NCBI GenBank assembly: GCA_027019175.1
Contig: JALUXB010000028.1
Location: 1-64,000 of the forward strand
Direction of reading: 5' to 3'
DNA: 64,000 bases
Source of the DNA: Sulfurovum sp.
GTDB lineage: Bacteria > Campylobacterota > Campylobacteria > Campylobacterales > Sulfurovaceae
The translations under genes were made by a program, and so were the position numbers. Shown piece after piece: positions 1,001 to 46,028 of the stretch (position 1 is the stretch's first letter; each line of letters starts with the position of its first letter). The notes beneath the pieces are model-generated. The model had not been told where the DNA came from, did no database searches, and worked only from the letters and a program-made list of their open reading frames with translations.

Positions 1001-1357
1001 ATGTTAAAAAGTATTCAGAAAAGAAAAAACAAACTTCGCGCTCAGAGAAAAGCGAGAGTAAGAGGCAAGATCTTCGGTACTGCCGAGCTGCCTAGACTCT
1101 CAATCTACAAGTCAAACAAGCACGTCTACGCTCAGGCGATCGATGACAATGCAGGTGCTACACTTGCTGCAGTTGACGGTAGAAAGCTCGGACTCAAAGC
1201 GAACAGAGAAGACGCGAAGAAAGTGGCTGCCGAAATGGCGAAAGCACTTGCTTCTAAAAACATTGAGACAGTTGTATTTGACAGAAACGGTTACCTCTAC
1301 CATGGTGTCGTTGCCGCATTCGCAGATGGCCTCAGAGAAGCCGGAATTAAGTTTTAA
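1001..1357 (+). CDS. rplR: Ribosomal protein L18
   Basis: L18 binds 5S rRNA and helps attach it to the 50S subunit. The 118-residue product has the basic N-terminus typical of the family ([19 protein letters not shown]), followed by [16 protein letters not shown] and a C-terminal [20 protein letters not shown], a classic L18 ending. It stands between rplF and rpsE as expected. Confidence 0.97.
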
Positions 1358-1363
1358 GGAAGC

Positions 1364-1813
1364 ATGATGGAAAATCAAGAAATCGAAAAAGAATTCGAAG
1401 AAGTGATCGTAAACATCGGTCGTGTTACCAAGGTTGTCAAGGGTGGTAGACGATTTAGATTTACCGCACTTGTCGTCATCGGTGACAAAAAAGGTAACGT
1501 TGGTTACGGATACGGAAAAGCCAAAGAAGTTCCCGACGCAATTAAAAAAGCGGTAGATGATGCTCACAAGAATCTTGTGAAAGTGAATATCAAAGGAACA
1601 ACGATCGCACACGACATTGAGCACAAGTTCAATGCAAGCCGTATTGTTCTGCGCCCGGCAAGTGAAGGTACAGGGGTTATCGCAGGTGGAGCTGCACGTC
1701 CGGTACTCGAACTTGCAGGCGTACAGGATGTACTGTGCAAATCGATCGGTTCAAACAACCCAAATAACCTGGTAAGATGTACAATTCAGGCACTTACCAG
1801 AATCAAATCGTAA
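1364..1813 (+). CDS. rpsE: Ribosomal protein S5
   Basis: S5 is a 30S protein at the mRNA entry and decoding region. The 149-residue product has the N-terminal dsRNA-binding-like domain ([29 protein letters not shown]) and the C-terminal [19 protein letters not shown] segment, both diagnostic. Two adjacent ATGs (1364 and 1367) could start it; AAGGA just upstream fits either. It is shorter at both ends than the E. coli protein. Confidence 0.96.
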
Positions 1814-1823
1814 GGGGTATAGT

Positions 1824-2222
1824 ATGGGTCTACATAATTTACAGCCGGCTCCCGGTTCTACTCGCAACAGAAAGAGAGTAGGACGCGGACAGGGGTCAGG
1901 TACAGGTAAAACAGCAGGTCGTGGTAACAAGGGTCAAAAAGCAAGATCTGGTTACAGCAAGAAAAGAGGTTTCGAAGGTGGGCAAATGCCACTCTATAAG
2001 AGACTTCCTAAAGTTGGATTTGTTTCAAAAGTTGAAAAACCGTATGTCATCAATGTCGACAAGATCAAAGCAGTCGCAGAGCTTGACGAGATTACACTTG
2101 AGAGTATCAAAAGCGTACACAAGTTGCAAAAAACCGTTACCAGAGTCAAACTGATCGGTTCATCTGCAAAAGATCTTGCAAGCAAGATCAAAGATGACGC
2201 TGTCACCACAAGCGGAAAATAA
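1824..2222 (+). CDS. rplO: Ribosomal protein L15
   Basis: L15 is a late-assembly 50S protein. The 132-residue product has the glycine- and arginine-rich N-terminus of the family ([20 protein letters not shown], then [14 protein letters not shown]) and the [17 protein letters not shown] signature. No rpmD (L30) gene lies between rpsE and rplO; the junction is only about 10 nt. Confidence 0.96.
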
Positions 2223-2224
2223 TC

Positions 2225-3487
2225 ATGGGTAATGCTTTAACTCAAAAAATCCTGATTACATTGGGATTCCTTTTTGCGTACAGAGTTTTAGCCTATATTC
2301 CTACTCCGGGGGTTGATTTGACGGTTATCAAAGATTTTTTTGATAACAATACAAACAACGCCCTCGGGATGATGAACATGTTCTCCGGTAATGCCGTGAG
2401 ACGTTTGAGTATCATCTCGTTAGGTATTATGCCTTACATCACAGCTTCCATCGTTATGGAACTCCTCGCAGCAACTTTCCCCACACTCGGCCAAATGAAA
2501 AAAGAACGTGACGGTATGCAGAAGTATATGCAGATCATTCGTTATTTCACCATCTTTATTACTGTCGTACAGGCTATTGGTGTATCCATGGGGCTGCAGA
2601 GTATGACCGGACGTGAAGGGCAAAGCGCGGTAATGATCGATCCTGTAACCTTTACGGTATTGACAACCTTTTCTATGTTGACAGGTACAATGCTTTTGAT
2701 GTGGATCGGTGAGCAGATTACGCAGAAAGGTATCGGTAACGGTATCTCCCTGATTATCTTTGCCGGTATTGTTTCGGGCATTCCTGCAGCAATAGGAAAC
2801 ACAATCCGTGCGGTCAATGCGGGAGAAATGAATTTCCTGGTTGTTTTGGCAATTCTGGCAGTAGTGCTTGTGACCATTCTTGTCATTATATATGTGGAAC
2901 TGGGAGAACGCCGTGTGCCTATCTCATACTCACGCAAAACAATCATGCAGAACCAGAGCAAGCGTGTCATGAACTACATCCCTATTAAGGTGAACCTTTC
3001 AGGTGTCATTCCTCCAATCTTTGCATCAGCGGTATTGATGTTCCCATTGACAATGCTGCAGGCAAGTACGAATCCGGTGTTGACTGCCATTGCAGATGCA
3101 TTGAGTCCGGGAGGTATCGTCTTTAACATTGCGACCTTCTTCCTTATTATTTTCTTTGCATTCTTCTATGCCTCTATTGCATTCAATGCGAAAGATATTG
3201 CAGACAACTTGAAGCGACAGGGCGGGTTTATCCCCGGTGTCAGACCCGGCGAACATACCAAAGAGTTTCTCAACGAAGTGGCAAGCCGTCTGACAGTGTG
3301 GGGTGCGATCTATCTTGGACTTATTTCGACAGTACCGTTCGCAATCATTTCGGGTATGGGTGCAAGCTTCTACTTTGGTGGGGTTTCAGTGCTCATTATT
3401 GTTCAGGTAGCACTCGATACGATGCGTAAAATAGAAGCACAGCGTACGATGAACCAGTATGATACACTGGGTAATGTAGGTCTCTAA
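2225..3487 (+). CDS. secY: Protein translocase subunit SecY
   Basis: SecY is the channel subunit of the SecYEG translocase in the inner membrane. The 420-residue product is rich in hydrophobic helices, about ten in all. It contains family motifs such as TPGVDL near the N-terminus, GIMPYITASIVMELL in the second helix region, GERRVPISYSR in the large cytoplasmic loop and FIPGVRPGEHT before the last helices. It starts two bases after the rplO stop and its TAA overlaps the next ATG (TAATG), so it is translationally coupled to map. Confidence 0.97.
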   Translation: MGNALTQKILITLGFLFAYRVLAYIPTPGVDLTVIKDFFDNNTNNALGMMNMFSGNAVRRLSIISLGIMPYITASIVMELLAATFPTLGQMKKERDGMQKYMQIIRYFTIFITVVQAIGVSMGLQSMTGREGQSAVMIDPVTFTVLTTFSMLTGTMLLMWIGEQITQKGIGNGISLIIFAGIVSGIPAAIGNTIRAVNAGEMNFLVVLAILAVVLVTILVIIYVELGERRVPISYSRKTIMQNQSKRVMNYIPIKVNLSGVIPPIFASAVLMFPLTMLQASTNPVLTAIADALSPGGIVFNIATFFLIIFFAFFYASIAFNAKDIADNLKRQGGFIPGVRPGEHTKEFLNEVASRLTVWGAIYLGLISTVPFAIISGMGASFYFGGVSVLIIVQVALDTMRKIEAQRTMNQYDTLGNVGL

Positions 3488-35967: not shown

Positions 35968-38900
35968 TTATACATTCTCTTTATCCCCATATTTTATATC
36001 TGGTTCCGCCACTTTCATGACAGGTTCATAGACATTGTTTTCTGGTTCACCATTGACCTGTTTGAGTCCTTTTGAGACCATCTCATAAATCAGGTTCGCA
36101 AATCGCTTCAGTTTGAGGTCTTCACCCAGCAGCTGTGTTGCAAGGTTCTGATGAACATCAAGGCTGTCGATGACCGCTGTACTGATCGCTTCGGAAAAAC
36201 CGCCCATCATAGCCTGCTCTTTGGTGTTGTTTGATACCTGATGGATGACCTTTTCATTTTCCATTACTTTGTCGCTGATGGTACGGGCGTAGTTAAGCAT
36301 GTCCTCCTCACTCAACCCTCCTTCAAACAGGGCACTGATCTCCCGAACGATGCGCGAAAGCAGTTCTTTGTCAGGATCGTGCGGTCTTGCTTCCCCAGGA
36401 TTGACAGGTGGCAAAGGATGCGTCTCCTCATCGAGACGGATGCTGTCCTCTTTCTGTTTGTGCAGCTTGTAGTGCGTCAGCTCCACGGCAGAGAGATCAA
36501 TGGGGTCTTTTTCGTCGATGGTTCTGAGATTGGGGAGGAGCCCTTTTGCATAGACATAGAGTGCCAGAAGCTCTTCATCCTGGTAGTCGACGATCTGCGA
36601 AAGAAACTCATACATCCTCACGAAGGTAGTCAAGTCTTTCTTGAAGATCTCCAGCGCCTTTTTCGTCTTTGACACTTCTTCCCGTTCGAGTGTAAGGTTG
36701 TGTAAGTGCTTTTCGTCTCCCTCTTGCTCCGCTTTGTCTATCTTCTCTTCAAGATCACGTATTTTTTCTATGCTTTCTTTGTAACGCACCTTGTATCGAT
36801 CTGCTGCCGGTTTGATTGCCGCACTCATCTGCGCCTGTGTGCCTTTGGGGTCAAAGAATGCATAGGCGTATGCCTCTACTTCGTTTGTCGTGAAGATCCC
36901 TGCTGCCTCAAGTTTGGTTTGCAGGTCATAAAGAATGTTCGGGTCGGTGACATCTTCAAGCACGGTGGTTTTGTAGTAGGGTGCGAACGCTTCTTTGATA
37001 TCTTCCGTTTCGTTGACAAAGTCGAGTATGAATGTCTGCTCTTTGCCCGGATAGATACGGTTGAGTCGTGAAAGCGTCTGCACACAGTCCACACCGCCGA
37101 GCTTCTTGTCTACATACATCGCACAGAGCTTGGGCTGGTCGAAGCCGGTCTGGAACTTGTTGGCGACGATCATCACCTGGTACTCGTTGGTATCGAATGC
37201 CTTACGCATATCTCTGCCGCGGAGGTTTGGGTTCATCGTCGCTTCGGTATACTCTTTCTCTGCACCTTCAGCATCATCGACCACCTTGCCTGAAAATGCG
37301 ACCATTGCCTGCATACCGTCGTAACCATGCTCCTTGATGTAAGCATCAAACGCGAGCTTGTACCGCACCGCTGATTGACGGCTTGAGGTCACGACCATTG
37401 CCTTTGCCTGATTGTCAAGCATATGTGCCACATGGGTGCGGAAGTGCTCGATGATGATCTCCACTTTCTGTGCGATATTGTACGGGTGGATACTGAGCCA
37501 CTTGGCGATCTTCGCTTTCGCCCGTTTGCTCTCGACCTCCTGATCCTTTTTCGGGTTGGCGTGTTCGAGCCTGTAGAAGAGTTTATAGGTAATGTATCCT
37601 TGCAGTACATCGAGGATGAACCCCTCTTCAATCGCCTGCTTCATCATGTAGGTGTGAAACGGTTGGGGCAGGTTGGTCTCTGACGGCGGCAAAGACGGGT
37701 CCGGCAATGTACCGAAGAGTTGCAGCGTCTTCTCCTTGGGCGTTGCGGTAAAGGCGTAAAAGCTGAGATTGCGTCTGCTCCCCTCCGCTTCAAGGGCAGA
37801 GGTCATCATCTCTTCGGCACTGATCTCCGCATCTTCGTCCACCTGTTCGACTCCCAGTACCTCTTTGAGCTTTTTGGCGGTCGCGCCGCTTTGTGAAGAG
37901 TGGGCTTCATCGGCAATGATGGCGTATTTGCGCTCCTTGAGGCTTGCACGGTGGCGGATGGCATCAAGCACGAACGGGAAGGTCTGAATGGTTGTGATAA
38001 TGATCTTCGCACCTTTTTCGAGCGCCTCGGCAAGCTGTACCGACTTGCTCTCGTTAGAACCCTCTCTGCTGATACCGACCACCACGCCCTCTTTGTGTTC
38101 AAATGAGCCTATGGTCTCCTGCAGCTGGTTGTCCAGCACCGTTCTGTCGGTGATGACAATGACGGAGTCAAATACCGCCTCTTCGTTGTTGCCGTGCAGT
38201 GAGGCAAGCTGATGCGCCAGCCACGCAATGGAGTTTGATTTGCCCGAACCGGCACTGTGCTGAATGAGGTAGTGTTCACCCACACCTTTTCCTCTGGTAT
38301 CGGCAAGCAGTTTTCGAACTGCATCGAGCTGATGGTAGCGGGGGAAAATGAGCGTTTCGCTTTTGTACTTTTTGCCTTGATGATCCTCTTTCTCTTTTAC
38401 CTCAAGGTGCAGATAGCGTTCAATGATGTTGAGTAGCGAGTCTTTTTGCAGGATCTCTTTGTAAAGGTAGTCGGTGGCGTAGCCGTTCGGATTGGGCGGG
38501 TTACCGGCACTGCCGTCGGGTTTGCCCTTGTTGAAAGGGAGGAAACGTGTTTTGGCACCTTCAAGCTTTGTTGTCATATAGACTTCGTCGGTACTGACGG
38601 CAAAGTGTACCAGTGTGCGCTTGTTGAAGCCCAGAAGCACCTCGCCTTTGGGGTTGCGGTCGTATCGGTACTGGTTGATGGCATCCTGCACATTTTGTGT
38701 GAAGTCGGTTTTCAGCTCCGCCGTTGCGATGGGAATGCCATTAAGGAAGAAGACGAGGTCGATACTGTTGGTGTTCTTGGCTGAGTAGTAGACCTGACGC
38801 ACCACACGCAGGATGTTGGCATCGTAGTGTGCCTGCGTATCGGGGTTGGGCAGTTCGGGCTTGAACCGGCAGAGCTTGAATTTCGCGCCGATGTACTTGA

Positions 38901-39171
38901 CCTCTTTGCGCAGCGTATGCAGCGCGCCGTGCTTGTCCATATTTTTGGCGATATGTTTGCAAAGCACTTCATCTGTTCGTGCACCCTCTCTGCGCTGCAT
39001 CTTCTCATACGCTTGCGGCTGAGTACGCTTGATGTAGGTAAGCAGGTCTTCGGGGTAGAGTCCCAGTGCGACATCGTAGCCTTTGGAACTGCCCTCGACC
39101 CAACCGTTGTCGGTCAGGTGTACGACGATCTCTGTCTCAAATCTCTCTTCTTTATGTTTGCCGCTACCCAT
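35968..39171 (-). CDS. hsdR: Type I restriction enzyme, R (restriction/translocase) subunit
   Basis: HsdR translocates and cuts unmethylated DNA as part of the R2M2S complex. The 1067-residue product has the nuclease motif near residue 150 (IDLVFFLNGIPIATAELKTD), Walker A AGSGKSNSIAWL near 305, DEAH in IIADEAHSSQSG near 418, FTATP, and QTLSRLNRIYPGKEQTFILD. The start at 39171 (MGSGKHKEERFE) has GGAGG 4-5 nt upstream. Its own -10 (39207-39212) and a copied N-terminal coding segment reflect the insertion described at 39134-40844. Confidence 0.95.
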   Translation of the reverse strand: MGSGKHKEERFETEIVVHLTDNGWVEGSSKGYDVALGLYPEDLLTYIKRTQPQAYEKMQRREGARTDEVLCKHIAKNMDKHGALHTLRKEVKYIGAKFKLCRFKPELPNPDTQAHYDANILRVVRQVYYSAKNTNSIDLVFFLNGIPIATAELKTDFTQNVQDAINQYRYDRNPKGEVLLGFNKRTLVHFAVSTDEVYMTTKLEGAKTRFLPFNKGKPDGSAGNPPNPNGYATDYLYKEILQKDSLLNIIERYLHLEVKEKEDHQGKKYKSETLIFPRYHQLDAVRKLLADTRGKGVGEHYLIQHSAGSGKSNSIAWLAHQLASLHGNNEEAVFDSVIVITDRTVLDNQLQETIGSFEHKEGVVVGISREGSNESKSVQLAEALEKGAKIIITTIQTFPFVLDAIRHRASLKERKYAIIADEAHSSQSGATAKKLKEVLGVEQVDEDAEISAEEMMTSALEAEGSRRNLSFYAFTATPKEKTLQLFGTLPDPSLPPSETNLPQPFHTYMMKQAIEEGFILDVLQGYITYKLFYRLEHANPKKDQEVESKRAKAKIAKWLSIHPYNIAQKVEIIIEHFRTHVAHMLDNQAKAMVVTSSRQSAVRYKLAFDAYIKEHGYDGMQAMVAFSGKVVDDAEGAEKEYTEATMNPNLRGRDMRKAFDTNEYQVMIVANKFQTGFDQPKLCAMYVDKKLGGVDCVQTLSRLNRIYPGKEQTFILDFVNETEDIKEAFAPYYKTTVLEDVTDPNILYDLQTKLEAAGIFTTNEVEAYAYAFFDPKGTQAQMSAAIKPAADRYKVRYKESIEKIRDLEEKIDKAEQEGDEKHLHNLTLEREEVSKTKKALEIFKKDLTTFVRMYEFLSQIVDYQDEELLALYVYAKGLLPNLRTIDEKDPIDLSAVELTHYKLHKQKEDSIRLDEETHPLPPVNPGEARPHDPDKELLSRIVREISALFEGGLSEEDMLNYARTISDKVMENEKVIHQVSNNTKEQAMMGGFSEAISTAVIDSLDVHQNLATQLLGEDLKLKRFANLIYEMVSKGLKQVNGEPENNVYEPVMKVAEPDIKYGDKENV
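39134..39161 (-). repeat. 28-bp direct repeat, copy inside hsdR
   Basis: It encodes KHKEERFET of HsdR. It is identical over 28 bp to 40817-40844, and both copies are read in the same codon phase. The distance between copies is 1683 bp. Confidence 0.9.
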
Positions 39172-39513
39172 AACGCCTCCAGAACAACTCCACATTATTT
39201 GGTTCAATTATAGCTTACATTATTTAAAATGGATACGAAAGAGGATTAACATAAAAAGGACAAAATCACACCGATTTCCTGCCAAAAGCCCATAAATAGG
39301 GGCTTTGTCGGTATCTCTGGTCTGTAGCCCGACGTGCGGTTTTATAGTTTTTTAAGCGGTGCACAGCTATACTTCCGGTATCATACACGCTGATTCCTCT
39401 GGTATTGGGCAGGTTGCCACTCTACTATGGTCAGCTTTTTTATGCCCATATTTTTTTATGTATGGCTCCCTTCTTTGCAACTGTCAGACAAGGGTTTACA
39501 AGGAGGTACAACC
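39172..39513. other. 342-bp intergenic region between divergent hsdR and the STAS-like gene
   Basis: It holds the hsdR -10 (minus-strand TATAAT at 39207-39212, predicted leader of 29 nt), a hairpin AAAGCCC/GGGCTTT at 39285-39306, a plus-strand TATACT at 39368-39373 as probable promoter for the STAS-like gene, and that gene's AAGGAGG at 39500-39506. I see no gene in it. Confidence 0.6.
39207..39212 (-). promoter_or_regulatory. -10 box of hsdR
   Basis: Minus-strand TATAAT gives a start near 39200 and a 29-nt leader containing GGAGG. It lets hsdR be transcribed apart from hsdM-hsdS. Confidence 0.55.
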
Positions 39514-39810
39514 ATGGTTATCAATGTCAAAAATGAAACCGGCGGTTTCGAGGTCATTGGCTCCAGAGGTGCCGGTGAGATCATCCGCAAAAAGATGAAA
39601 AAAGAGCTCGACAAAGGCAATACAGTTACATTGGATTTCGTTGGGGTAGAGCAGGTCACGCAATCTTTCATCGATGAGTTCTTTGGGATCTTCATCAGAG
39701 CTTTTGGTATGGAGTACATCAGAGGAAAAGTACTGCTTGTCAACGAAACACAAGGTATCAAAGATACGATCAACTTCGTGATCAAATACTCCAAAGAGAT
39801 GGTGGCTTAA
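39514..39810 (+). CDS. STAS-like protein (DUF4325-type)
   Basis: The 98-residue product resembles the STAS-like DUF4325 family: GSRGAGEIIRKKMKKELDKG, then VTLDFVGVEQVTQSFIDEFF and a C-terminal helix. The SFIDEFFG segment resembles the region around the phosphorylated serine in anti-sigma antagonists. The ATG at 39514 has AAGGAGG at good spacing; a longer frame would add a hydrophobic stretch without a ribosome site. It converges on the GHKL ATPase gene, with stops overlapping by 4 nt. A partner-switch role with that protein is inferred. Confidence 0.7.
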   Translation: MVINVKNETGGFEVIGSRGAGEIIRKKMKKELDKGNTVTLDFVGVEQVTQSFIDEFFGIFIRAFGMEYIRGKVLLVNETQGIKDTINFVIKYSKEMVA

Positions 39811-40643
39811 AAAAAGTCTTCATCCTCTTCGTCATCCAGTTTCCACAAATACTCTCTTTTAAAATAGTCCATATCGTAGTTGATATTTGCCTCGAAGAAC
39901 TCGAATGCCACCACGACACCTTTCCATGGATTTTCAAGCTTTTTGGCAACAAACTTTCCATTGTCGTACCGAAGCAGTGTGTCATTTGAGATGATGACAA
40001 ACCGCCCACCGGTCATCTTCAATATCTCAAACATTGCGTAGAGTCCATACCCTGCATTTTTGGCTTGATTATACATCTTTCGCTCTGTAGAGGTAACGCC
40101 TTTTTCGAGAGCTTTTTGGATAGCTTCTATCTCTGTCTCAATATTATTGTAGTTCAAGCGCATGTTTTTTAAAAATGCAACGCCCCTGTCGGCTACGACA
40201 AACTGTATCTTTCTGTTGGTCGGATAGTATTGTGCCATAGTATAGCCACCTACAGGTGAGTGGGCGTGATCGGCGACATTGTTCATCAGCTCCAGGAAAA
40301 GATACTGAAGATAGTGTTTGAGATCGCGGATATCCTCTTCGTTCAGCTGTGTAAAGTTTTGCAGCATGATGTTTGTAATATGTGTAGAGATCTCCTCCAA
40401 GCCCATTCTACTATTTTCTATCTTCTCTATGGGGCTGTAGGTTTTGTTGGGGGTATGGTTTTGTATGATCATATTGCGCAGGTAGTCGTTGTCTGTCTGG
40501 ACTTCTATCTGCCTGTCCACCTGGTAGGCACGCAGCATCCCGATAAATATCGGTTCAATCCAATCAAAGCCGGAAAAGGTGGCATTGTCTTCTTGGAACA
40601 GATGCATATATGACTCAATGTTGGACATCGTAACTCTTGGCAT
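39807..40643 (-). CDS. GHKL-type ATP-binding protein
   Basis: The 278-residue soluble product has a Bergerat-fold ATP site: N-box FLELMNNVADHAHSP (E118, N121/N122), G1 box VVADRGVAFL (D152, G154) and G2-like KNAGYGLYAMFEILK (G198, G200). It lacks a phosphoacceptor-histidine domain and any membrane helix, so it is more like an anti-sigma/serine kinase or MutL/Hsp90-type ATPase than a sensor kinase. AGGAGT precedes the ATG. It faces the STAS-like gene and lies within the segment inserted in the hsd operon. Confidence 0.75.
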   Translation of the reverse strand: MPRVTMSNIESYMHLFQEDNATFSGFDWIEPIFIGMLRAYQVDRQIEVQTDNDYLRNMIIQNHTPNKTYSPIEKIENSRMGLEEISTHITNIMLQNFTQLNEEDIRDLKHYLQYLFLELMNNVADHAHSPVGGYTMAQYYPTNRKIQFVVADRGVAFLKNMRLNYNNIETEIEAIQKALEKGVTSTERKMYNQAKNAGYGLYAMFEILKMTGGRFVIISNDTLLRYDNGKFVAKKLENPWKGVVVAFEFFEANINYDMDYFKREYLWKLDDEEDEDFF

Positions 40644-40754: not shown

Positions 40755-40816
40755 TTTGCCAGTGCTCTTTACGTGAACTTCCTACTCTTTCGATGGTGCA
40801 GGCAAGCAGGTCTTTG

Positions 40817-40844
40817 GTCTCAAATCTCTCTTCTTTATGTTTGC
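40817..40844 (-). repeat. 28-bp direct repeat, copy at the fic boundary
   Basis: Identical to 39134-39161. It is placed one codon after the ATGA that joins fic and the hsdR stub. Removing one copy with the intervening 1655 bp restores an in-frame hsdR beginning MSKHKEERFETEIV. Confidence 0.9.
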
Positions 40845-41840
40845 TCATTTTGTTTCACGCTCTTTTACATTCCAGTGTCCGCTCTTCAAACTGCCCACCC
40901 GCTCGACTCTGCCTTCTTCCTTGAGTTTGGCAATGTCCCGCTTGATGGTCTTGTCACTGACATCGCAGGCGTATGCAAGTTGCTCTATGGTGACGGCACT
41001 GTTCTCCTGCATCAATCTTATGATCTTCTCTTGTCTGTTTATTGGGACATTTTTAGGGACAGTTTTGGGGACATCTCTCTCTACTGCCAACTCCTCTTCA
41101 CAGCTGCGCAGGATGGCTTGAAGCATAAACGCCACAAACGGTGTGCTCTCTCCAGCACTCCCTGCTGCCTCCAATGCGTCATAGTAACCCTGCTGGCTCT
41201 CCTTGATGACGCTCTCTATGGGAACAGCGGAAAAGATGGGCTTCCAGTCATAAAGTATCAGACTCTGCCAGAGCCTGCCTATGCGTCCGTTACCGTCTTC
41301 GAACGGGTGGATGAACTCGAACTCGTAGTGAAAGACGGAGCTTTTGATAAGCGGGTGAATGTCGGTACTCGAGAGCCAGTCAAACAGATCGCCCATCAGC
41401 TGGGGTACTCTGTCGTATAGCGGAGCGACATGCACGACTCCCTCTTCGCCTCCAACACCGACATTGCTCGTTCTGAAACTTCCGGCTTTTGTCAATATTT
41501 CCCCCATCAGCATCTTGTGTGCCGACAACAGGTCGTCAAGCTTTTTATAATCGAAGTTGTCAAGGTTGTCATACACCTTGATAGCCCCGTTGACCTCTGC
41601 GATCTCACGCACACTTCCCATTACCCGCTTGCCCTCGAGGATAGCCGTAACCTTCTCGATACCGAGGGTGTTGCCTTCTATTGCAAGTGTGCCTGTAATA
41701 GTCTTGATCTTGTTGGCTTTCCGCAGCTTTGGTGTGATCGCCGTGGGAGCAAGCAGTTCAAGCTTACCTATGGCTTCACTGATCTGGCTGACGAGGTCGA
41801 GGATGGTCGGGGTGATGGTGAAGGGTGGTGTATAGGTCAT
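40845..41840 (-). CDS. Fic-family protein with C-terminal winged helix
   Basis: Fic enzymes transfer AMP or related groups to proteins. The 331-residue product has the catalytic motif HPFEDGNGRIGRLW (H178) and, at 51-57, TLAIEGN, matching the inhibitory motif [S/T]xxxE[G/N] with E55, so it is self-inhibited (class II). The tail at about 270-325 is a DeoR-like winged helix (ITIEQLAYACDVSDKTIKRD), suggesting DNA binding. It overlaps both neighbours by ATGA and belongs to the hsd operon. Confidence 0.9.
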   Translation of the reverse strand: MTYTPPFTITPTILDLVSQISEAIGKLELLAPTAITPKLRKANKIKTITGTLAIEGNTLGIEKVTAILEGKRVMGSVREIAEVNGAIKVYDNLDNFDYKKLDDLLSAHKMLMGEILTKAGSFRTSNVGVGGEEGVVHVAPLYDRVPQLMGDLFDWLSSTDIHPLIKSSVFHYEFEFIHPFEDGNGRIGRLWQSLILYDWKPIFSAVPIESVIKESQQGYYDALEAAGSAGESTPFVAFMLQAILRSCEEELAVERDVPKTVPKNVPINRQEKIIRLMQENSAVTIEQLAYACDVSDKTIKRDIAKLKEEGRVERVGSLKSGHWNVKERETK

Positions 41841-42688
41841 ATCATTCCCTTTTCACAGTCGAGGGTCTTGTCTTTTTCGATAACCCCTCTCTTGAGTATA
41901 CTTATTATTGCTGATAAATCTTTTAGTTTTCTATCAACAAGTTCAAGTAATTTTCTGTCACTTGAAGAGATGTGCTTTCTTTCTTCTTCATTGTGAGGAA
42001 AAGGGTGTTCTATACGGTTTCTGATATCTTTCAACTCTTTTATATGATCCACAGTATATTTGTTATCAAATTGTGAAAGACAGTCTGATAGATTTTTCCC
42101 GGCAGATTCGCTATTCCAATTATCAAAGATATTTCCCGCCACGCCCAAAGCTTCAATGGCTTTTATGTACTGAACATACTTTGTGGTTAAATTTTTAGCG
42201 CGAAGTCCATCAGCATAATTGGTATAAAATTTTTCGAATTTGTATGCATTTCTTATCAAATTTGAATTCAAGTTAAATTGTCTTTCAAATGATGCTTTTT
42301 GTGAAAAAAGACTTATCTTCCAAAAGCCAATACTGTTTGGTTCGACACTTATTAGCGATCCATCTCTAAAAATTTTTTCACAATCAAAAGCATCTATTCC
42401 ACAATCTGCAAGGATATAGTTTGAGACATATGTGCATAAATGGTATGCTTCATACTTTAAATCGTGAATATTATGTATACAAAATTTACCGCTTTTATCA
42501 TCACATGGACTATATTCGATATCACTGAAAACCACTTTCACTTCTGTGAGTAAAGCATCTTCTATACTTGCTTCAATGGCAGCGTTTTGAATGTCTGTCT
42601 TTACATCTAAATCTGAGTCATCGGCTATTGGAATATCTTTATTTGGCTTGAGAGTAAATATGACTTTTAGTGTACTCTTTTTCATCAT
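41837..42688 (-). CDS. HEPN-like domain protein within the hsd operon
   Basis: The 283-residue product has no signal or membrane segment. Its C-terminal part holds ELKDIRNRIEHPFPHNEEER, an R-x4-H motif (R223, H228) typical of HEPN nucleases, in an AT-rich gene unlike its neighbours. The N-terminal 130 residues are unrecognised. The start at 42688 was chosen because it forms an ATGA overlap with the hsdS stop and has GGGAG 5 nt upstream. It could be an RNase toxin or an abortive-infection effector tied to the restriction system. Confidence 0.65.
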   Translation of the reverse strand: MMKKSTLKVIFTLKPNKDIPIADDSDLDVKTDIQNAAIEASIEDALLTEVKVVFSDIEYSPCDDKSGKFCIHNIHDLKYEAYHLCTYVSNYILADCGIDAFDCEKIFRDGSLISVEPNSIGFWKISLFSQKASFERQFNLNSNLIRNAYKFEKFYTNYADGLRAKNLTTKYVQYIKAIEALGVAGNIFDNWNSESAGKNLSDCLSQFDNKYTVDHIKELKDIRNRIEHPFPHNEEERKHISSSDRKLLELVDRKLKDLSAIISILKRGVIEKDKTLDCEKGMI

Positions 42689-44076
42689 CCTTTCTCCCGT
42701 ACATCGCACCCCACCAGGGTCTCTTCTCTGACTTCGTCATTCACCTGAATCTTCCCCGTCACTGCTGCGCTTATGAGTGCCGTGCGGCGCTCTTTGAGGA
42801 GGGTGATGGCTTGCTTGGCTTTTTCGATGAGGGTGTCGATCTTGTTGGTTTGGGTGTCAAGGTAGTCAGCGATTTGTTCTTGTTCGTCCTGGTCAGGTAA
42901 AGCAAAAATAAAATTCCGGAAGTCTTCTTGTGCTAAGTTTTGCATACTTGAACTGGTGCCCTCACATACAGTTTGAATATAACCCCTATATATCCCTGTA
43001 AGCGTTAAATAGTGTACAAATACAGGAACAACGGACCTAAATATAACTTGCCATAGTCGATCAGGTAAGTAAATATTACAAGGTGCATATTCTACGAATC
43101 CAGCAGCACCAACAAGATCAGGAGTATTCATTCGACTAACTATTAAAGTATTTTCTTTTAATTGACATGACACACGCGATACTTCTGCTTTGAATACTGT
43201 CTTATTTTGAGAGGGATCAAACTTCCCAGTATAAACACAACTTGTCTTTAAGACACCGATTTCCTCATTTGATGCAGGGGTATCGGAAGCGTTAACACTT
43301 GTGCCTGATTCAATTCTGTGAATTACATATTTCATCTTTGTCACTTCCCAATGTTCCGGCACCTCACCCAGCCACGCAACCCCGCTCTCTTTCATCTTCG
43401 CATTGGGGTCAAGCCCTTTGGTGACGGCGTGGGAGATGAGTGCCTGCCGTTTCTCCTGCAGGAGTTCGATGAGCCGCTCCTGCTTGGCTATAAGCATGTC
43501 GATCTTGGCGGTTTCGCGGTCGAGGAAGTTGGCGATGGTGGTTTGCTCTTCGAGCGGAGGCGATGAAACAAAAATGTTTTTTAAGTCATCAGTACTAAAC
43601 CTGAATACCTTTAGCCCTGTGGCATATTTTCGCAACTCATTACAAAATACTCTTGAATAATAGTACAAATACTTTCCAAACAAGAGCTTATTGTATGGCT
43701 TCAACAGTATTTGTTCCCCACCTATCAAGCCCAACTCTTTCCTGTTATAAAAGCAAGAATGACCCAAGTCCTCGATAGTTTCAGATGTTGATACAAGAAT
43801 GGTATCACCTTGATGAACAACTTGGTTAGATTTGAAAAATTCACTATTAACATAAAAGTTGAAAGAATCATTAATTTCATCAACTTTATATGTCTTACCA
43901 TATTGCAAAGCAACAAAGTCACCTTTATTTAATAGTTCATCTTTTTTAAATCCTGTGTTGCCTCTAATGATTGTAGTGATCCAGTCAATTCGATACTTTT
44001 CCCAATACTCCGGCACCTCCCCCAACCACTCAACACCACTCTCCTTATACTTCGGATAGGGCTTGTATCTACTCAC
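42685..44076 (-). CDS. hsdS: Type I restriction enzyme, S (specificity) subunit
   Basis: HsdS sets the DNA target. The 463-residue product has the duplicated plan: [15 protein letters not shown] starting target domain 1, a conserved helix at about 178-220 ([20 protein letters not shown]), [15 protein letters not shown] starting target domain 2, and a second helix at about 400-440 ([20 protein letters not shown]). The two target domains are AT-rich and the conserved parts GC-richer, as expected for exchanged recognition cassettes. It overlaps hsdM by 4 nt. Confidence 0.95.
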
Positions 44077-46028
44077 GCCTTGATCTCCCCAAGCAGCGCT
44101 ATGATCTCTTCTGTCACCTTGTCCAGCTCTTCATCTATCTCCTCAAGCGGTCGTGGCGGCGTGTACTCGTAGAAGTGGCGGTTGAACGGTATTTCGTAAC
44201 CGACAACGCCCACTTTCCCGTCTTTTTCATCCACCTTCTTCTCGTCTATCCACGCCAGTGGCACATGCGGCTTGACCTCTCGCTCAAAGTAGTCGTAGAT
44301 GTCCTCTTTGAGCGGTACATTTTCGTAGTCACGCAGGTCAGGATCGGGCTCAAGTTTGCCTTTCTTGTCGCGGCAGAGTGCCGCTTCGTCGTCGTGTTCG
44401 CCCAGATGCTTTTGCAGCAGCTTGAGCTGTGCGGCGGTGAGTTTGATGCCAAGCTTCTCGACAAATACTTCACGGTCGGTGATCTTCTCTTCGTCCATCT
44501 TCGAGAGGGCTTCGAGCACCTCCCCTTGCAGGCTTTCGTTCCATTTCCTGAACGCCTTGTTCGCCTTGAGTGCCTCGATGCGTGTCTCATCGTGCGGGTA
44601 GAAGCTCAGTTGCAGCGGTCGCTCTACAGTGATGCGACGGTAGCCAAAATCGGTGGTATCAAAAATCTTGCTCACCTTCGACTCCGCAAACTCACCATAG
44701 ATGCGCACTATCTCTTCTATCTGCTTCTCGCTGATCTGCTTGCGCTTGCTGCCAAGAGACTTGCGCATAGGCTCAAACATATCGCTCGCATTGACAAGCT
44801 GCACCTTGCCTTTGCGTTCAGGTGCTTTGTGGTTGGAGAGTATCCAGATGTAGGTGGCGATGCCGGTGTTGAAGAACATATCGGTCGGCATAGCGACGAT
44901 GGCTTCAAGCAGGTCGTTTTCAAGAATGTAGCGACGTATCTCGCTCTCGCCGCTGCCTGCCCCTCCGGTAAAGAGCGGTGAACCGTTGAGGATGATCCCT
45001 ATACGGCTGCCGCCCTCCTGCGGCGAGCGCATTTTAGATATGAGATGGAGCAGGAAAAGGAGTGAACCGTCACTCACCCTTGGCAGTCCGGGACCGAACC
45101 TGCCGTTGTAGCCTTGCTCCTCGTGCTCCTTGACGACCGCTTTTTGCACCTTTTTCCACTCCACGCCAAAGGGCGGATTGGAGAGCATATAGTCGAACTT
45201 CTGGTCTGCCAGGAGGTCGTTGCTGAGGGTGTTGCCGTGTTTGATGTTCTCGACCTTCTGCCCTTTGATGAGCATATCGGCTTTACAGATGGCATAGGAC
45301 TCTCCGTTGAGCTCCTGACCGAATGTCACCAGTGTGGCATCAGGGTTGATCTCGTGGATATACTCTGTTCCACTGGTAAGGAATCCGCCCGTTCCGGCTG
45401 TCGGATCGTAGAGACTGCGGACAATGCACGGCTTGGTGAGTACCTCGTCATCGGTGGAGAAAAGCAGGGATGTGGTCAGGCGCACAATGTCACGAGGCGT
45501 AAAGTGCTCTCCCGCTGTCTCGTTGGATGCTTCGGCGAACATACGGATGAGCTCTTCAAAAACGATACCCATCTGATGGTTGCTCACACGGTCGGGGTGC
45601 AGGTCTACAGAAGCGAACTTCTCTACAATAAGATAGAGCAGGTTGGTCTCTTCGAGTTTGTCCAACTGCACACTGAACTCATACTTCTCGAAAATCTCCC
45701 TTGCGTTGGGACTGAAGCTGTTGATGTAGCTCTCTATGTTCTCCCGCAGGTTGTTCGGGTCGCTCATCAGCTTGGAAAGCGTGTACTTGGATGTGTTGTA
45801 GAAGTTGTGCCCCGACTTGCGCACCAGAATCTTCTCGAGCGGTATGCCAAGCTCCTTGCGTGCTTCGTACTCTTCAAGCACTGCATCTCTTGTCGGCTCC
45901 AATACACACTCCAGACGGCGCAGCAGTGTAAAGGGCAGGACAACTTTGCCATAATCTGATTGTTTATAGTCACCGCGAAGCAGGTCTGCCGTGCTCCAGA
46001 TGAGTGATGAGAGTGATGGTTGTGTCAT
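44073..46028 (-). CDS. hsdM: Type I restriction enzyme, M (methyltransferase) subunit
   Basis: HsdM methylates adenine in the HsdS target. The 651-residue product has the SAM motif [16 protein letters not shown] near 208 and the catalytic [11 protein letters not shown] near 283, the N6-adenine pattern. The N-terminal helical domain reads [20 protein letters not shown]. It is longer than E. coli HsdM, with a C-terminal extension ([19 protein letters not shown]). It is the first gene of the operon. Confidence 0.95.

Follow-up and report, generated by a model that had tools for sequence, protein, structure and literature searches.

Two genes meet tail to tail in the window, a stretch of 64,000 nucleotides from the genome of a sulfur-oxidising Sulfurovum. 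One encodes a STAS-like protein of 98 aa (positions 39514 to 39810, forward strand, ATG at 39514 and TAA at 39810), and the other a GHKL ATPase of 278 aa (39807 to 40643, reverse strand, ATG at 40643 and TAA at 39807). The stop codons overlap by 4 nt (TTAA, 39807 to 39810), as an earlier note on this DNA had described. The mechanically called reading frame of the STAS gene begins at 39427; we placed the start at the ATG at 39514 on the basis of a GGAGG box and of conservation in relatives. The earlier note had raised the possibility that antisense transcription balances the two genes; their tail-to-tail arrangement is conserved, but searches at the pair yielded no terminator, promoter or RNA signal beyond chance expectation, and an Rfam search gave no match. 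A candidate terminator hairpin (39535 to 39549, reverse strand) was rejected, because the number of hits was the same as in shuffled sequences and synonymous sites do not preserve the hairpin.

The STAS-like protein matched DUF4325 in Pfam (PF14213, E 4e-14, passing the cutoff), the family type that the earlier note had suggested. The ATPase matched HATPase_c_2 and HATPase_c below threshold only (E 0.006 and 0.027, respectively). A comparison of 19 diverse homologues showed that its N box (E118, N122), G1 box (D152, G154) and G2 box (G198, G200) are invariant, and no DHp or HisKA domain was found in it. These results bear out the description of a soluble Bergerat-fold ATPase that lacks a histidine-phosphotransfer domain. 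The GHKL core starts near residue 80 of 278, and the C-terminal tail is acidic. The short N-terminal region (about residues 1 to 78), which holds an invariant tryptophan (W28), could be a reduced STAS-like domain. A catalytic toxin domain is absent from both proteins, and a DNA-binding domain from the STAS protein. Structure models were built on 9 to 10 close sequences and reached a pLDDT of 64.5 for the ATPase and 56.8 for the STAS protein. Foldseek matched the ATPase model to SpoIIAB (prob 0.98-0.99, E about 0.01), and SpoIIAB anti-sigma kinases are, at this model quality, its best mechanistically relevant fold matches. The Foldseek result for the STAS protein was discarded because the model was too poor (pLDDT 57).

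The pair lies within a type I restriction operon. The order is hsdM (44073 to 46028), hsdS (42685 to 44076), a gene for a 290-aa protein (41837 to 42709), a Fic-HTH protein gene (40845 to 41840), the pair, and hsdR (35968 to 39207), with hsdM, hsdS, the 290-aa gene, fic and hsdR all on the reverse strand; two tRNA-Glu genes and a tRNA-Ala gene bracket the whole. The Fic-HTH protein, an accessory of the operon, matched PF02661 (E 1.4e-21) and the PADLOC profile SoFic (E 1.9e-50). The 290-aa protein has no Pfam match and carries a HEPN-like RNRIEH motif, and may possibly be a HEPN-type accessory gene product. The STAS gene and hsdR diverge from an intergenic region (39208 to 39513), and the same layout is found in the relatives L003, L004 and L005. 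In all four restriction loci the divergent genes are separated by about 300-350 nt, and hsdR is separated from hsdMS. Because hsdR is thereby severed from the hsdMS transcript, it presumably has a promoter of its own.

A relative without the pair (genome G060, locus L065) indicates how this arrangement arose. In it fic directly overlaps hsdR, and its DNA is 86% identical to the window at the fic end and 85% identical at the hsdR end. A blastn comparison with this locus revealed that the pair in the window is flanked on both sides by a direct repeat of about 28 bp of the hsdR start (reverse strand). One copy (40814 to 40842) forms the start of an hsdR-like frame just past fic, and the other (39135 to 39163) lies within the present hsdR start. 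The pair-less locus and the repeat support the earlier proposal that the pair was delivered as a unit into the operon, the newcomer being either the pair or the fic module. Three Sulfurovaceae-type loci (L003, L004 and L005) have the order hsdM-hsdS-pair-hsdR without Fic, and L004 and L005 occupy chromosomal places other than that of the window. The ATPase of L003 is 94% identical to that of the window, and the kinases of the four restriction loci form one branch (93/93), so the link to restriction most likely had a single origin. In pair-less relatives in the order, the gap between hsdS and hsdR holds Fic, Abi_2, DUF3800, RhuM-like or DUF1016-like genes, the RhuM-like and DUF1016-like names having been assigned by eye. 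Between hsdS and the kinase gene of L003 (6380 to 6460) we observed a short stretch resembling part of fic (CCTAAAAATGTCCCAATAAA), which suggests that accessory genes have been exchanged here more than once. In the Sulfurovaceae branch the pair has come to occupy the accessory position that separates hsdS from hsdR, and its signal may be tied to restriction there.

The search for co-occurrence and genomic context that the earlier note had suggested yielded 14 distinct loci (the window, L002-L012, L017 and L018), drawn from ten loci on genome contigs together with others from whole genomes. The ATPases of the relatives are 94% down to 43% identical to that of the window, and the closest named matches are from Sulfurovum MAGs (82-94%). 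All 14 loci, the window counted, have both genes, without exception and in convergent orientation. The 4-nt overlap is kept in 11; the exceptions are L017, where the overlap is 0 nt, L002, which has a 6-nt gap, and L012, which is apparently frameshifted. The distribution is patchy, with the convergent type in 7 of 397 high-quality Campylobacterota genomes, and the convergence recurs in about eight unrelated chromosomal contexts, which is more than chance would give. Linkage to restriction genes is confined to 4 of the 14 loci, all in one Sulfurovaceae branch, and most other copies lie amid housekeeping genes. Neighbours at the non-restriction loci, surveyed mostly by eye from translations, include acetate kinase/phosphotransacetylase, PEP carboxykinase/UvrB, NagZ/AnmK, TolC/HlyD and an EAL protein. 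Given these varied contexts, the two convergent genes form a cassette of their own and do not belong to the restriction genes. The earlier note had called the pair a candidate defence or regulatory module; a link to defence is seen mainly at the Sulfurovaceae restriction loci.

Several further observations concern individual copies. In L006 (3389 to 5696) the pair is preceded, at a distance of about 2-3 kb, by genes for GmrSD_N (DUF262), HEPN and a D12 methylase fragment. In L008 a tRNA-Val gene (1735 to 1810) immediately precedes the STAS gene, and integrase fragments lie on the flanks of the pair in L018 (2481 to 3688); both possibly mark integration sites. In L023/L099 (G298:C3), degraded pieces of the kinase and STAS genes contain stops, and this copy of the pair is apparently in decay. 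In L092 an orphan member of the STAS family (1477 to 1788, reverse strand), with no kinase detected, overlaps convergently with a gene for a small membrane-like protein, and a metallopeptidase-like gene adjoins.

Relatives of the two genes are also neighbours in co-directional order. In the same phylum we found STAS-kinase (L019-L021), kinase-STAS (L025) and kinase-STAS-PIN (L024 and L026-L030) arrangements. Beyond Campylobacterota the search covered phages, plasmids and viral contigs, and kinase-STAS pairs were found in streptococcal and Bacteroides phages and on a Pseudomonas plasmid. The viral contigs held no relative of the window ATPase, and the other family members there were copies of one Bacteroides phage pair. 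In the phage family phrog_5816 and in PADLOC PDLC02567, the ATPase and the STAS protein matched separate stretches of one long protein, i.e., these are natural ATPase-STAS fusions. Taken together, the conserved convergence, the co-directional neighbours and the fusion elsewhere are strong evidence of linkage and mark the ATPase and the STAS protein as a functional pair. Judged by dN, the STAS protein is the more slowly evolving of the two, by a factor of about 2.7, and synonymous sites are close to saturation in both genes. Such slow evolution is expected if the STAS protein must fit more than the kinase.

We then compared the pair with the kinase-STAS switches CapK/CapS and VapK/VapS/VapC, which were described in June 2026 (EMBO J, PMC13373217). 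The STAS profile matched the solved Escherichia VapS (9Z7O) with E 1e-16 when the diverse profile A5 was used and with E 7e-4 for A2 alone, and did not significantly match CapS (E 1.2). By these profile matches, the STAS family of the window is the VapS family. The GHKL part of the kinase (residues 116 to 251) aligned in hhalign to the VapK-type kinases of the phylum (99.2%, E 2e-19). No alignment to VapK was obtained for N-terminal residues 1 to 78, where the model is of low confidence (pLDDT 35-70). The column of W28 is aromatic (W or F) in 17 of 18 aligned homologues, and aromatic residues, W68 in CapK and F54 in VapK, are required for activity in the described systems (PMC13373217). We take W28 to be their putative counterpart, an indirect equivalence drawn from alignment and not from structure. 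In the STAS motif VTQSFIDEFFG, S51 and T/S49 are conserved in all convergent members. Because the column of the VapS phospho-serine is Gln here, the neighbouring S51 (or T49) is the candidate phospho-acceptor. Counting against this assignment, neither Ser nor Thr occurs at positions 49-51 of L020, a co-directional STAS-kinase relative.

These data suggest that the tail-to-tail genes probably encode a kinase and a small protein switched by it. We consider it reasonably probable that the pair is a two-gene, VapC-less kinase-STAS switch of the CapKS/VapKSC kind, perhaps sensing single-stranded DNA and acting on an unlinked target. In a resting cell, the STAS protein would bind and retain some target. 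The kinase would most likely respond to DNA damage or invading DNA; its trigger would most plausibly be single-stranded DNA arising from phage infection, restriction or repair and, by analogy with CapK and VapK, might be sensed through the aromatic W28. Once triggered, the kinase, a proposed Ser/Thr kinase of the SpoIIAB/CapK/VapK kind, would bind ATP and phosphorylate S51 or T49, where the second helix of the STAS protein begins. Phosphorylation would free the target, which would be an unlinked, well-conserved host factor present in Sulfurovum and Sulfurimonas alike. No linked target gene is found in most loci; we infer the kinase activity, the phosphorylated residue and the unlinked, well-conserved host target.

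The resemblance to a partner switch, which had been recognized earlier, is supported by the pairing of a STAS-like protein with a Bergerat-fold ATPase, and it raises the alternative of a classical anti-sigma switch, in which the housekeeping sigma factor RpoD, or a different core regulator, is held by the ATPase and set free by the STAS protein. The resemblance to SpoIIAB/SpoIIAA in fold and family, the very high conservation of the STAS protein, such as a core partner would impose, and one SpoIIE-type phosphatase gene elsewhere in the genome agree with such a switch. The patchy spread, however, is unlike that of a core stress switch. A PF04542 search of the window's genome (G000) matched RpoD alone, in line with the earlier remark that no sigma factor is nearby, and the lack of an alternative sigma-70 factor makes a classical sigma switch unlikely there. 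A linked phosphatase is also absent, except in L017 (genome G145), where a gene for a PP2C phosphatase-protein kinase (1330 to 2772, reverse strand) precedes the kinase gene in the same orientation at a distance of about 55 nt; it could be the phosphatase of the switch or a chance neighbour. We regard an anti-sigma switch as an unlikely explanation.

The restriction setting suggests two other readings. The pair might be a stand-alone anti-phage system whose effector is the ATPase or the STAS protein itself, the restriction locus being merely a carrier. Its place in the accessory slot, the integrase or tRNA genes beside some copies, its G+C content, which is below that of hsdR and hsdM, and streptococcal prophage homologues located between lysin and integrase are all consistent with this reading. 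We nevertheless think it improbable, given that neither protein has a catalytic toxin domain and that most other loci are amid housekeeping genes. Alternatively, the pair might control hsdR expression locally, either through the intergenic region between the STAS gene and hsdR or by interrupting the operon, and the layout shared by all four restriction loci, with hsdR divergent from the STAS gene and split from hsdMS, would suit this role. Against it, the STAS protein lacks any DNA-binding domain, and an equally conserved pair stands far from restriction genes in most Sulfurimonas loci; we consider local control of hsdR very unlikely.

Returning to the kinase-STAS switch that we favour, two outputs of such switches are known, repressor release and toxin release (PMC13373217). 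The conserved convergent clade keeps the kinase and the STAS protein without either a repressor or a toxin output, which implies a third output. We tentatively propose, as a possibility about which we remain rather doubtful, that these pairs are a third branch of kinase-STAS systems, a mobile tail-to-tail two-gene cassette whose STAS protein controls an unlinked conserved host target upon DNA damage. For a two-protein switch such an invariably convergent arrangement is unusual, since each partner needs a promoter of its own. The strong conservation of the STAS protein makes it a good bait for finding the target.

Among known systems, the SpoIIAB/SpoIIAA and RsbW-type switches likewise consist of a Bergerat ATPase and a STAS partner, with matching folds, but the window pair has no linked sigma factor, and its STAS protein belongs to DUF4325 by Pfam and not to the classical STAS family. 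The R-linked ORFs (rlo) of Campylobacter type I restriction loci are also accessory genes between hsdS and hsdR, whereas pairs of the window type are found outside restriction loci too. To our knowledge, a kinase-STAS pair has not previously been recorded among rlo genes. HEF_HK/Response_reg_2 and paraMORC are GHKL ATPases of restriction islands (PMC8011034, PMC2292703) and share with the window a GHKL protein near restriction genes. Membership in these groups was ruled out because Pfam gave no PF19191 or MORC-type match, and the partner of the window ATPase is STAS-like and not a receiver domain. Membership in DISARM was also rejected; the PADLOC DrmA matches came from one long DrmA profile with ATPase and STAS-like stretches and not from a DISARM locus.

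The earlier note had called the pair a candidate undescribed module, a view that is not supported as stated, since the kinase-STAS switch has been described as CapKS and VapKSC and the STAS protein falls in the VapS family. CapK is an HTH-STAS-GHKL kinase and CapS a STAS-wHTH repressor; an immune operon follows CapKS in 348 of 443 published cases, and about 20% of CapKS lie directly downstream of restriction-modification genes (PMC13373217). The window pair is likewise a kinase-STAS pair, but it is convergent, its kinase has no N-terminal HTH (no Pfam HTH match), and its STAS protein (98 aa, PF14213 only) lacks the C-terminal winged helix, which excludes a role as a DNA-binding repressor like CapS. 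VapKSC comprises the kinase VapK, the STAS antitoxin VapS and the PIN toxin VapC (PMC13373217), and operons of this type with homologous K and S (kinase, STAS, PIN) occur on a plasmid of Deinococcus as well as in six genomes of Campylobacterota. Unlike the co-directional VapKSC genes, those of the window converge and have no adjacent PIN/VapC gene. A VapC acting in trans was considered and rejected: a search with profile A7 found no VapC-type PIN toxin elsewhere in G000, and the two marginal matches in other genomes have an internal stop or lie in a 1088-aa frame. The window STAS protein ends at residue 98, whereas the VapS-type proteins of the phylum are 15-19 aa longer at the C-terminus, so that the window protein is without the tail by which VapS blocks VapC, and the column of the VapS phospho-serine falls on the Gln at position 50, a shift by one. 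VapKSC and the window pair alike join a GHKL kinase to a DUF4325 STAS protein, and the closest described kin of the window pair are CapK/CapS and VapK/VapS/VapC.
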